Of a DNA stretch of 64,000 bases, positions 45,235 to 57,909 are shown piece after piece (within the stretch, counting starts at the first letter, position 1; the number at the start of each line of letters is the position of its first letter). Origin of the DNA: Azadirachta indica (lineage: Eukaryota > Streptophyta > Magnoliopsida > Sapindales > Meliaceae); NCBI GenBank assembly GCA_022749755.1, contig CM040450.1, positions 1,562,218 through 1,626,217 on the forward strand, in the 5' to 3' direction. A program made the position numbers and the translations under genes. Below the pieces are notes generated by a model. The model saw nothing but the letters and a program-made list of their open reading frames with translations. It did no database searches and was not told the DNA's origin.

Positions 45235-45885
45235 TTACAAATGAAGCGACAAATCCAACTTTCGCTTTTTACTGCTTTCACTTGACCATTCTAATCGTGC
45301 CATTGTTGGATCTGGTTCATAGACAAAGTTCTGCAACTGATTGATCAAGTCATTAGCAGTCAGAGCAGAAATGAGGAGTTTGCGAGCCATCTGTAAAATA
45401 AAATTTTGTTCTACAGCATGATCAAGAAAAGACAATAACTTGTTAAAGAAACCATTAACATTTAACAATCCTATGGGTTTTTGATGAACGATGAGTTGTG
45501 CCCAAGATGTAATTTGAAAAATTTCTTTTAACGTCCCAAAATCACCTGGTAACGCAATAAAAGCATCCACAGAATCAAGCATTTTAGCAATTCTTTCATG
45601 CATTGTTGAGACCATTAGTTCTTCTCCAATTGTTTTGCCAGTTATGTTACCTGCAGATAAAGCCTTTGTTATGATACCTATGACTTCACTTCCTCCTATA
45701 TGTGTGGCAGTAAATACACACCCTATTAACCCAAGGCTACCTCCTCCATACACTAGGTTAAATTTTCGCTCAGCTAAAACTCGACCCAGGTTGTCTGCTG
45801 CTTTTACAAACTCTTCACCTTTCCCAAAACTTGACCCACAAAAAACACAAATAGTTTTAATTTAATAAGCAGAAGCTCCTTTCAT
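45235..45885 (-). pseudogene. LOG-like gene in E1, catalytic motif lost
   Basis: LOG enzymes release active cytokinin base from its riboside monophosphate. On the minus strand the ATG at 45885 is followed by a TAA at codon 8, then ICVFCGSS-type text and YGGGSLGLIG. After that come STMHERIAKML, PGDFGTLKEI and PIGLLNVNGFFNKLLSFLDH, ending KKRKLDLSLHL. The total is about 216 codons, the usual LOG length, with no intron. The PGGxGTxxE motif is PGDFGTLKE: the second Gly and the Glu are changed, so it would be inactive. The stop at codon 8 is shared with E2. Confidence 0.85.
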
Positions 45886-46189
45886 TTTTTTTTTTTTGCA
45901 GTCTTTTACCCCCGTCAGTGATTCAAATTTCTTATGAAAATAAAGAAGTGAGGTCCTCCATTTATACAACTTAAAGAGAATGCATTAATGAAACCAATAG
46001 AGGTAAGCCAGCTGTTGTCATAAAAGTTAAAATTTAAAAATTTAAAAATGTCAAAGATAACAGCTAATATAGGAATCTAAAACATAAAAAATTTCAACAA
46101 TGACAGCTAAAAGTAAATATTTATAGATAGTTGTGACTGTGGCTCACATCTTCCTCTGGTTTTACGTCCAGTAACGGCTTAAACGCCCT

Positions 46190-46738
46190 CTATGGGTCGA
46201 GGATTGGCTTCCCATCCAATTTTCTTACAAATTGGCAAACAGGGTCTTTTAAAGTCAGATTCCCAAGACTATAACGATCACGTTCTTTTTGAAATACTGT
46301 ATACAAATTGAGAATTTCACGTTGCACATATCCACTAGGATGCGTCTCAAGAGTCAATAAGATATTATCTAAAGACTCCTTACTCAGTCCATCCTTGATG
46401 AATTTAATTTTATCTTCTCTATTAGTAGACACCATGCCTAGAGAACGACATCGCTTGTTACAGGTTGAACGTGCACAATTGTGACACACTTGTAACCTTT
46501 TCGCTCTTCGTTTCTTTGCAAAAGAGCTCTTACCTAAACCAAGCATGCATGAAACAAATGAATCAGAAAACTCACCTGCTAAACGTACCTTTGCTTCAAT
46601 TATCCATCGCACATCTTCAGGAATACCTTTTTGCATAAGCATTCTTAATCTTGCACACCTAGCTTGGTACATTTTTCGTAGAACATCTTTAGGAAAAGAA
46701 GGAAAATATGTTTGCAATTTAGAAAGAATGACATCCAT
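46190..46738 (-). CDS. Cys-rich basic protein of E1, viral NABP-like
   Basis: Open frame of 182 codons from ATG 46738 (MDVILSKLQ), stop at 46190-46192. Residues 1-70 look helical and charged. 71-82 are SSFAKKRRAKRL, then VCHNC, with Cys at 85, 88, 93 and 97 (CX2CX4CX3C) and another basic residue group. The tail to 182 is helical and ends DGKPILDP. A basic Arg/Lys patch directly before such a Cys cluster resembles the small nucleic-acid-binding proteins of carlavirus-type plant viruses. That is a resemblance by eye, not a search result. It is four residues different from E2. It lies between RNase H and the LOG-like ORF. Function unknown. Confidence 0.6.
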   Translation of the reverse strand: MDVILSKLQTYFPSFPKDVLRKMYQARCARLRMLMQKGIPEDVRWIIEAKVRLAGEFSDSFVSCMLGLGKSSFAKKRRAKRLQVCHNCARSTCNKRCRSLGMVSTNREDKIKFIKDGLSKESLDNILLTLETHPSGYVQREILNLYTVFQKERDRYSLGNLTLKDPVCQFVRKLDGKPILDP

Positions 46739-46870
46739 AATGAAAGAAAAGAATAGAAAAAGAGGTGAGAGAAAAAAAAAAGAGTATTAGTAATTTTGGG
46801 CAACTGAAAGAACCGACTTGAAGAGTCACGGAGTACCGTTATCCGCCACTTGACCGGGAAAGTAACTCCT

Positions 46871-56244: not shown

Positions 56245-56895
56245 TTACAAATGAAACGACAAATCCAGCTTTCGCTTTTTACTGCTTTCACTTGACCATT
56301 CTAATCGTGCCATTGTTGGATCTGGTTCATAGACAAAGTTTTGCAACTGATTGATCAAGTCATTAGCAATCGGAGCAGAAATGAGGAGTTTGTGAGCCAT
56401 CTGTGAAATAAAATTCTGTTCTACAGCATGATCAAGAAAAGACAACAACTTGTTAAAGAAACCATTAACATTTAACAATCCTATGGGTTTTTGATGAACG
56501 GTGAGTTCTGCCCAAGATGCAATTTGAAAAATTTCTTCTAAGGTCCCAAAACCACCTGGTAAGGCAATAAAAGCATCTGCAGAATGAAGCATTGTAGCAA
56601 TTCTTTCATGCATTGTTGAGACCATTAGTTCTTCTCCAATTGTTTTGCCAGTTATGTTACCTGCAGATAAAGCCTTTGGTATGATACCTATGACTTCACT
56701 TCCTCCTATATGTGCGGCAGTTGACACACACCCTATTAACCCAAGGCTACCTCCTCCATACACTAGGTTAAATTTTCGCTCAGCTAAAACTCGACCCAGG
56801 TTGTCTGCTGCTTTTACAAACTCTTCACCTTTCCCAGAACTTGACCCACAAAAAACACAAATAGTTTTAATTTAATAAGCAGAAGCTCCTTTCAT
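56245..56895 (-). CDS. LOG-like cytokinin-activating enzyme ORF in E2, one early stop
   Basis: Homolog of LOG (cytokinin riboside 5'-monophosphate phosphoribohydrolase, lysine-decarboxylase-like fold). On the minus strand TICVFCGSSSGKGEEF leads to VYGGGSLGLIG, GGSEVIGIIPKAL, STMHERIATML and the nucleotide site PGGFGTLEEI, complete. ELTVHQKPIGLLNVNGF, SFLDHAVEQNFI and a Lys/Arg end follow. About 216 codons, family-typical, no intron. The best ATG (56895) is followed by TAA at codon 8, just before the conserved start. The next in-frame start is the GTG at 56763, which would cut off the first conserved block. Same strand as pol, about 300 bases after the Cys-rich ORF. Confidence 0.85.
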
Positions 56896-57198
56896 TTTTT
56901 TTTTTTGCAGTCTTTTACCCTCGTCAGTGATTCAAATTTCTTATGAAAATAAAGAAGTGAGGTCCTGCATTTATACAACTTAAAGAGAATGCATTAATGA
57001 AACCAATAGAGGTAAGCCAGCTGTTGTCATAAAAGTTAAAATTTAAAAATGTAAAAATGTCAAAGATAACAGCTAATATAGGAATCTAAAACATAAAAAA
57101 TTTCAACAATGACAGCTAAAAGTAAATATTTATAGATAGTTGTGACTGTGGCTCACATCTTCCTCTGGTTTTACGTCTAGTAACGGCTTAAACGCCCT
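56896..57198 (-). other. Spacer between Cys-rich and LOG-like ORFs in E2
   Basis: About 300 bases without a frame, nearly the same in E1 (45886-46189). A T-run (A-run on the element strand) lies just before the LOG-like ATG. The element strand has AGCTGTTATC and AGCTGTCATTG words and a TATAAATATTTAC-like AT-rich part near 57127-57140, which could be a promoter-like site for the LOG-like ORF. This is a guess. Confidence 0.4.
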
Positions 57199-57909
57199 CT
57201 ATGGGTCGAGGATTGGCTTCCCATCCAATTTTCTTACAAATTGGCAAACAGGGTCTTTTAAAGTCAGATTCCCAAGACTATAACGATCACGTTCTTTTTG
57301 AAATATTGTATACAAATTGAGAATTTCACGTTGCACATATCCACTAGGATGCGTCTCAAGAGTCAATAAGATATTATCTAAAGACTCCTTACTCAGTCCA
57401 TCCTTGATGAATTTAATTTTATCTTCTCTATTAGTAGACACCATGCCTAGAGAACGACATCGCTTGTTACAGGTTGAACGTGCACAATTATGACACACTT
57501 GTAACCTTTTCGCTCTTCGTTTCTTTGCAAAAAAGCTCTTACCTAAACCAAGCATGCGTGAAACAAATGAATCAGAAAACTCACCTGCTAAACGTACCTT
57601 TGCTTCAATTATCCATCGCACATTTTCAGGAATACCTTTTTGCATAAGCATTCTTAATCTTGCACATCTAGCTTGGTACATTTTTCGTAGAACATCTTTA
57701 GGAAAAGAAGGAAAATATGTTTGCAATTTAGAAAGAATGACATCCATAATGAAAGAAAAGAATAGAAAAAGAAGTGAGAAGAAAAAAAGAGTATCAATAA
57801 TTTTGGGCAACTGAAAGAACCGACTTGAAGAGTCACGGAGTACCGTTATCCGCCACTTGACCGGGAAAGTAACTGAAAACAAACAATGGAATAAAAAAAA
57901 AATTAACAA
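57199..57909 (-). CDS. Cys-rich basic protein of E2, viral NABP-like
   Basis: Open frame of 236 codons. The part shared with E1 starts at MDVILSKLQ (57747), 182 codons. The 54 codons before it are rich in Phe/Leu (FFFSLLFLFFSF), and E1 lacks an ATG for them, so I prefer the 57747 start. In the 182-residue numbering a basic patch KKRRAKR (75-81) precedes Cys 85, 88, 93 and 97 (CX2CX4CX3C) with His 86. E1 and E2 differ at 6 bases in this ORF, four of them changing the residue, so this pair gives no sign of purifying selection. A zinc-binding nucleic-acid protein is likely. Kinship to plant-virus NABPs is inferred from the motif layout. Confidence 0.65.
   Translation of the reverse strand: MLIFFLFHCLFSVTFPVKWRITVLRDSSSRFFQLPKIIDTLFFFSLLFLFFSFIMDVILSKLQTYFPSFPKDVLRKMYQARCARLRMLMQKGIPENVRWIIEAKVRLAGEFSDSFVSRMLGLGKSFFAKKRRAKRLQVCHNCARSTCNKRCRSLGMVSTNREDKIKFIKDGLSKESLDNILLTLETHPSGYVQREILNLYTIFQKERDRYSLGNLTLKDPVCQFVRKLDGKPILDP

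Follow-up and report, generated by a model that had tools for sequence, protein, structure and literature searches.

Why would a plant retrotransposon carry a gene of the cytokinin-activating enzyme family next to one for a nucleic-acid-binding protein of plant-virus type? The question is raised by two elements, E1 and E2, of one long terminal repeat (LTR) retrotransposon family (family E) in a 64,000-nucleotide stretch of the neem genome (Azadirachta indica, assembly GCA_022749755.1, contig CM040450.1, positions 1,562,218 to 1,626,217 of the forward strand; the whole stretch is hereafter the window). Both elements, as an earlier note made from the window's sequence had described, contain a nucleic-acid-binding protein (NABP)-like open reading frame (ORF) followed by a gene derived from LONELY GUY (LOG), placed between the remains of pol and the 3' LTR and, like the rest of each element, on the minus strand. 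We find that this pair has been retained across a large and diverged neem family and that the element-type LOGs sampled form a single clade, and we argue tentatively that the pair may serve the element in the host nucleus.

A gene pair retained through a retrotransposon family

Searches of the neem genome were scored for the best 150 of 285 LOG candidates and the best 150 of 337 NABP candidates, so that copy numbers given here are lower bounds. The NABP list contained 148 places besides E1 and E2, of which we inspected 60 (ranks 3–42, ten of ranks 43–61 and ten diverged ones). NABP was followed by LOG on the same strand in 60 of these 62 copies, mostly at a spacing of about 300 bases and with LOG fragmented in several, and no LOG was found behind NABP in the other two (L036 and L050). 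The earlier note had named two outcomes that would speak against a mobile cassette, namely absence of the pair from other copies, and E1 and E2 being one locus that was segmentally duplicated or misassembled. Neither was found: 58 of the 60 other copies carry the pair, and a duplicated or misassembled locus is ruled out by this count, by the target-site duplication of E2 and by E1–E2 similarity that stops at the LTRs. E2 is an insertion of its own, because GTAAT flanks both of its ends, and the cassette moves with the element, as had been proposed.

Reverse transcriptase (RT), ribonuclease H (RNase H) and integrase lay in this order ahead of NABP in 10 of 12 upstream stretches selected by hand (seven from high ranks, five from lower ones); the exceptions were L083, which is interrupted, and L092, which comprises only the integrase end. 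Pfam matches on pieces of L085 and L089 included protease, RT, RNase H, integrase H2C2 and rve. The L085 integrase ORF, followed to its stop, matched rve only, with no chromodomain (E ≤0.01), and L089 positions 1978–2901 matched RNase H and then integrase H2C2 and nothing else at the same threshold, with no second (archaeal-type) RNase H. Because of this domain order and the lack of both a chromodomain and a second RNase H, family E is assigned by exclusion to the Athila type of Ty3/gypsy elements under the lineage criteria of PMC6317226, where absence of the second RNase H separates a lineage from Tat. The Athila ORF-1 domain PF03078 was not found in the scanned E1 and E2 ORFs; according to PMC6317226, it is present in just 16% of Athila elements.

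Between 6.637 and 6.928 Mb of neem sequence C7, about 22 NABP/LOG places of the diverged type lie mostly 8–13 kb apart, several with equal scores, an arrangement that suggests tandem amplification of the element. C7 also carries, at 771 kb and 5951 kb (L079 and L080), two copies of a 3.44-kb stretch (99.65% identity) with an intronless LOG7-like frame that is 61% identical to Melia LOG7 and keeps Lys100. No NABP, RT or integrase match was present within the 4 kb examined there, and this frame is a separate LOG retrocopy.

The LOG-derived protein

In a tree that combined 45 element-type LOGs with 15 cellular ones from plants (mostly LOG7) and one from a bacterium, a branch with 99/96 support, recovered in 100% of 200 bootstrap trees, separated the element type from the rest; most element-type sequences had been assigned to that class by similarity. 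A first tree of 63 sequences without an outgroup gave the same split; it included five long-branch sequences (P0239, P0240, P0160, P0172 and P0152) that were omitted from the second. Six of the ten neem LOG frames collected entered the trees, and one mis-framed sequence (L052) was left unused. The LOG tree that the earlier note had called for hence places the sampled element-type LOGs in a single clade apart from cellular LOGs. One database protein considered as a cellular LOG (P0225) was rejected, as it scores with the element-type LOGs of Xanthoceras. Neem LOG frames are uninterrupted by introns, and since cellular LOG genes contain several, the element gene would derive from RNA, probably through a single capture.

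Of 157 element-type LOGs, 150 were scored for residues (numbered as in CgLOG, PMC4979012) and 152 in a separate count. All 47 cellular relatives keep Met96, His97, Arg99, Lys100, Glu121, Glu122, Glu125 and Trp129. Most element-type proteins retain the LOG fold, PGGxGTxxE and the catalytic residues Arg99 (142/150) and Glu122 (148/150). Lys100, by contrast with the cellular proteins, is kept in only 23, the remainder having Ile (44), Met (43), Leu (39) or Thr (1), and Glu125 in 21, with Gln (72), His (50) or other residues (7) elsewhere. Both are gone in 127 of 150 proteins, neem included (HERI, EEIFQ). Because all 127 proteins without Lys100 also lack Glu125, while Glu125 persists in 21 of the 23 with Lys100 (two have Lys100 alone), these two charged residues of the base/prenyl pocket are lost together, and the catalytic pair is retained. 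His97 remains in 58 of 124 proteins of the main class, defined by the lack of Lys100.

In most of them, the C terminus is a disordered tail with a basic stretch and then DLxLxL. This motif was found in 104 of 120 element-type relatives vs none of the 47 cellular ones. Among 60 neem copies, the tail leucines were present in 52 (L212), 48 (L214) and 51 (L216), with 7–9 copies unread at these positions. The alternating leucines are also conserved in a hand-chosen set of 27 proteins, which excludes P0152 and P0180 (different ends) and the Xanthoceras/Acer type.

The NABP-like protein

Each NABP of the window lies narrowly above one Pfam cut-off and narrowly below the other. The E1 protein matched PF05515 with 24 bits (cut-off 23; E = 4.4e-5) and PF01623 with 20.7 (cut-off 20.9; E = 4e-4), and the E2 protein scored 21.9 bits (E = 2e-4) and 21.6 bits (E = 2.2e-4) against the same two models. 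Across the family, 75 of 83 relatives matched PF05515 (best E = 1.1e-8) and 74 of 83 matched PF01623 (best E = 3.7e-8) at E ≤0.01, in agreement with the viral type to which the protein had been ascribed. Lys75, Lys76, Arg77, Arg78, Lys80, C85, C88, C93 and C97 are each conserved in at least 90% of the 83 aligned relatives. A fold search of BFVD with a low-confidence model returned mostly flexivirus nucleic-acid-binding proteins or silencing suppressors among the first 25 of 41 matches, none of them at E ≤0.001. A sequence search of PDB gave a best E of 0.26, and a scan of viral contigs with the NABP alignment gave 32 pattern matches and no relative, in a collection that may omit plant RNA viruses. 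Silencing suppression has been described for viral proteins of this type, and one of them is reported to be a transcription factor that causes hyperplasia (PMC12172455).

The NABP stop codon in the 62 neem copies is TAG in 47, TAA in 13 and TGG in 2; because it varies in this way, no selection for a leaky stop, and so for readthrough, was seen among these copies. The whole NABP–LOG spacer is conserved at the DNA level. Some 22 codons just past the stop (RAFKPLLDVKPEEDVSHNHNY, 46110–46189 in E1) are near-identical in neem copies and in a protein of Acer, and they are followed by TATAAATA in E1, E2 and close copies.

Relatives in other plants

Protein-database searches (best 120 of 418, 3826 and 7997 matches) placed both genes outside neem. 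As the database is made up of predicted proteins, it contains few broken copies, and unnamed entries were called element-type by sequence similarity alone. Among the matches listed, NABP relatives came from Xanthoceras, Acer, Populus and Rhamnella, and element-type LOGs from Melia (the closest named relative), Populus, Rhamnella, Diplodiscus, Reevesia, Pterospermum, Xanthoceras and Acer. These matches represent the rosid orders Sapindales, Malpighiales and Rosales for both genes and Malvales for LOG only (five species were looked up and the remainder assigned from general knowledge). The best 120 relatives of each gene were 60–84% (NABP) and 58–84% (LOG) identical to the neem queries. The two genes adjoin in Xanthoceras (tags 032186 and 032187), an Acer gene model fuses part of NABP and LOG in one protein, and two contigs (8723 and 4511 bases) occur in both match lists. 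That P0095 and P0207 lie on contigs of the same length (1558) was given no weight, as this could be coincidence.

Three Populus proteins annotated as LOGL10 (P0194, P0201 and P0219) have the element-type pocket and the DLxLxL tail. They may be retrotransposon or domesticated genes mistaken for ordinary host LOGs.

Selection on the pair

Ratios of nonsynonymous to synonymous divergence (dN/dS) were calculated pairwise within the neem genome, with RT taken from 14 copies only. At dS 0.3–0.5, dN/dS was 0.50 for NABP, 0.57 for LOG and 0.58 for RT; above dS 0.5, it was 0.35 (nine pairs), 0.54 and 0.54 (one pair), respectively. The share of changes at third codon positions at the greatest divergence was 0.36–0.37 in all three. 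Since the deep values of the accessory genes are close to those of RT, NABP and LOG look about as constrained as RT, on what we regard as moderate evidence.

Anatomy of E1 and E2

The features of the two elements are as follows (minus strand unless stated; window coordinates).

42683–44077: E1 3' LTR, full length, 94.1% identical to the E2 5' LTR
45235–45885: E1 LOG-derived gene, with a stop at codon 8, damaged PGGxGTxxE (PGDFGTLKE) and tail KKRKLDLSLHL
46190–46738: E1 NABP-like gene, intact, 182 amino acids, with a basic KKRRAK cluster and C85-x2-C88-x4-C93-x3-C97
47126–48850: E1 pol, RT and RNase H, no integrase match behind
48727–50887: E1 gag and protease region in several ORFs (PF03732 in 50456–50887; protease by similarity to E2)
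51219–51625: E1 5' LTR remnant of about 0.4 kb
53706–53710 (no strand): E2 target-site duplication GTAAT, the other copy at 64074–64078, just past the window end
53711–55091: E2 3' LTR, 96.7% identical to its own 5' LTR
56245–56895: E2 LOG-derived gene, with a stop at codon 8, intact PGGFGTLEE, HERI at the Arg99–Lys100 site and tail KKRKLDLSFHL
57199–57747: E2 NABP-like gene, intact, 182 amino acids
57988–61094: E2 protease, RT and RNase H in three ORFs, no integrase match
62668–62685: E2 primer-binding site TGGCGCCGCTGCCGGGGA
62691–64000: E2 5' LTR, extending to 64073, past the window end

The LOG ORFs listed for the earlier note were truncated; the gene was rightly recognised, and its extents are those given above. 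Both LOG genes match PF03641 (E = 9.5e-34 in E1 and 1.6e-38 in E2). The E2 LTRs are about 1.38 kb each, and the primer-binding site resembles tRNA-Asp. At a plant substitution rate of 1.3e-8 per site and year, the LTR identity of E2 dates its insertion to roughly 1.3 million years ago.

Both copies are broken, as they share an identical stop at LOG codon 8 and no integrase match was found within either, the pair lying directly behind RNase H in both. Because E1 and E2 have this stop in common yet occupy different sites, complete relatives probably provided the functions needed to move such defective copies. E1 is also without about 235 bases present in E2 (57875–58090 vs 46849–46867 in E1), and this gap starts about 15 bases from the point where the E2 pol frame ends ahead of integrase; the pol losses are possibly successive deletions at one point. 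The window also contains two oppositely oriented copies of another gypsy stretch (40851–42627 and 1505–3271, 88.9% identity), the former with an integrase match at 41867–42372.

Possible functions of the pair

The reading we lean towards, at somewhat less than an even chance, is that NABP and LOG form an accessory cassette that acts on the host nucleus and is not simply a cytokinin activator. Both proteins would be expressed from element RNA and have the nucleus as their site of action. Judged by its viral cysteine-rich counterparts, the NABP-like protein would bind nucleic acid and either counter silencing or alter host transcription. The LOG-derived protein would engage co-repressors of the TOPLESS (TPL) type via its tail, which resembles an ERF-associated amphiphilic repression (EAR) motif, and its pocket may now accommodate some purine nucleotide that is not the classic prenylated adenosine monophosphate (AMP). 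Together, the two could relax the restraint that host nuclei place on the element. Several observations weigh against this. The residue counts on which the pocket change rests (127 of 150) follow two clades and hence are not independent, and the tail is not universal, as 12 proteins that keep Lys100 end in RLD/RLA or alike. LxLxL alone is insufficient in other proteins, with none of ten other tested LxLxL effectors binding TPL (PMC7446885). The AlphaFold model of NABP is of low confidence (predicted local distance difference test score 66, predicted template modelling score 0.34) and found no viral fold match at E ≤0.001. Finally, dN/dS in the deep bin is just moderately under 1, and among the closest copies it is about 1.2 in NABP, LOG and RT, with no excess of third-position changes; a value of about 1.2 plausibly fits change that occurred mostly in dead copies.

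The earlier note had called the LOG product a cytokinin-activating enzyme. If it still is, the element might raise free cytokinin, stimulate division or meristem fate and thereby favour its own germ-line transmission. The retained fold and catalytic Arg/Glu pair agree with that part of the claim, and so does the minority class with Lys100 (with Glu125 too in 21), which suggests that the enzyme may still have been functional in early elements. The main class, neem included, is without both pocket residues, and changing the AMP-binding residues of CgLOG to Ala almost wholly removed activity (PMC4979012; Lys100 is named among these residues, with mutants not itemised). The cytokinin reading is thus weakened for the main class and may still hold for the minority class, and overall we consider it unlikely. 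About as improbable, in our view, is a structural or dominant-negative role, in which the LOG-derived protein associates with Gag or the LOGs of the host, displacing or poisoning them, and its tail docks on an element protein and not on TOPLESS. LOGs form dimers whose interface holds the prenyl site (PMC4979012), the label env-like has been given to sense ORFs that follow pol in LTR elements of plants (PMC7264820), and a disordered, terminal tail would suit docking of this kind; a mere scaffold, however, would not need the conserved catalytic residues, and DLxLxL closely matches a host motif. That the genes were captured and are carried without function is a view to which the broken state of E1 and E2 and the moderate dN/dS lend something. 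It fits poorly with the RT-like deep dN/dS, with the identity still kept by the best 120 relatives of each gene and with the conservation of catalytic residues and alternating leucines, and we consider it highly improbable.

Relation to known systems and implications

Athila-like/Gypsy elements with a LOG/YgdH ORF were reportedly described by Steinbauerova in 2011. A LOG (YgdH) domain has also been found in Gypsy elements of Citrus and Populus (PMC9289625, which cites that work); these are likewise Ty3/gypsy elements with a LOG-type domain, and very likely belong to the same lineage as family E. The combination of genes, which the earlier note did not know from described Athila elements, is therefore in part already published. 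What stands is the NABP partner, for which no report was found in the open-access literature, nor was one found there for the LOG pocket change and tail; the excerpt of PMC9289625 describes the domain alone, to which we add the NABP partner, the grouping of element-type LOGs in one clade, their pocket change and their tail. The same source mentions orchid Ty3/gypsy elements with an N6-methyladenosine demethylase-type domain, in which a plant Gypsy element has likewise gained and retained an enzyme domain; the enzyme differs from that of family E, and that excerpt does not mention a second accessory gene.

The cysteine-rich proteins of carlaviruses, allexiviruses and mandariviruses (PF05515, PF01623; PMC12172455) resemble the element NABP in having a basic cluster, similar to a nuclear localization signal, directly ahead of a Cys zinc finger. 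The element protein differs in its 182 amino acids, in conserved N- and C-terminal parts beyond the matched core and in being retrotransposon-borne. With plant LOGs of the LOG7 type, the element LOG has in common the fold, PGGxGTxxE and the catalytic Arg and Glu, whereas the joint loss of Lys100 and Glu125 and the basic DLxLxL tail set it apart. EAR-motif effectors such as HaRxL21 (PMC7446885) similarly present a C-terminal LxLxL in a foreign protein; the element LOG, unlike HaRxL21, is encoded by a resident retrotransposon, and its TPL binding and nuclear location are putative.

In a fuller scenario, which we regard as rather doubtful as a whole, the lineage would have taken up a hormone enzyme a single time, either ahead of the diversification of rosids or in its course, and converted it to a nuclear accessory protein with altered nucleotide specificity and a co-repressor-recruiting tail, next to a virus-type NABP; the pair could then disarm silencing or nucleotide-based immune signalling. 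Some annotated LOG genes (e.g., "LOGL10" of Populus) belong to the element-type class. Plant LTR retrotransposons often carry extra genes, mostly of unknown use. Here, both extra genes have recognisable families and stay paired, and LOG shows changes at the level of single residues; therefore, the long-standing question of whether plant retrotransposons possess host-acting accessory proteins can be tested directly by single-protein assays. If the proposed role is true, the cassette would be a plant counterpart of retroviral accessory genes.

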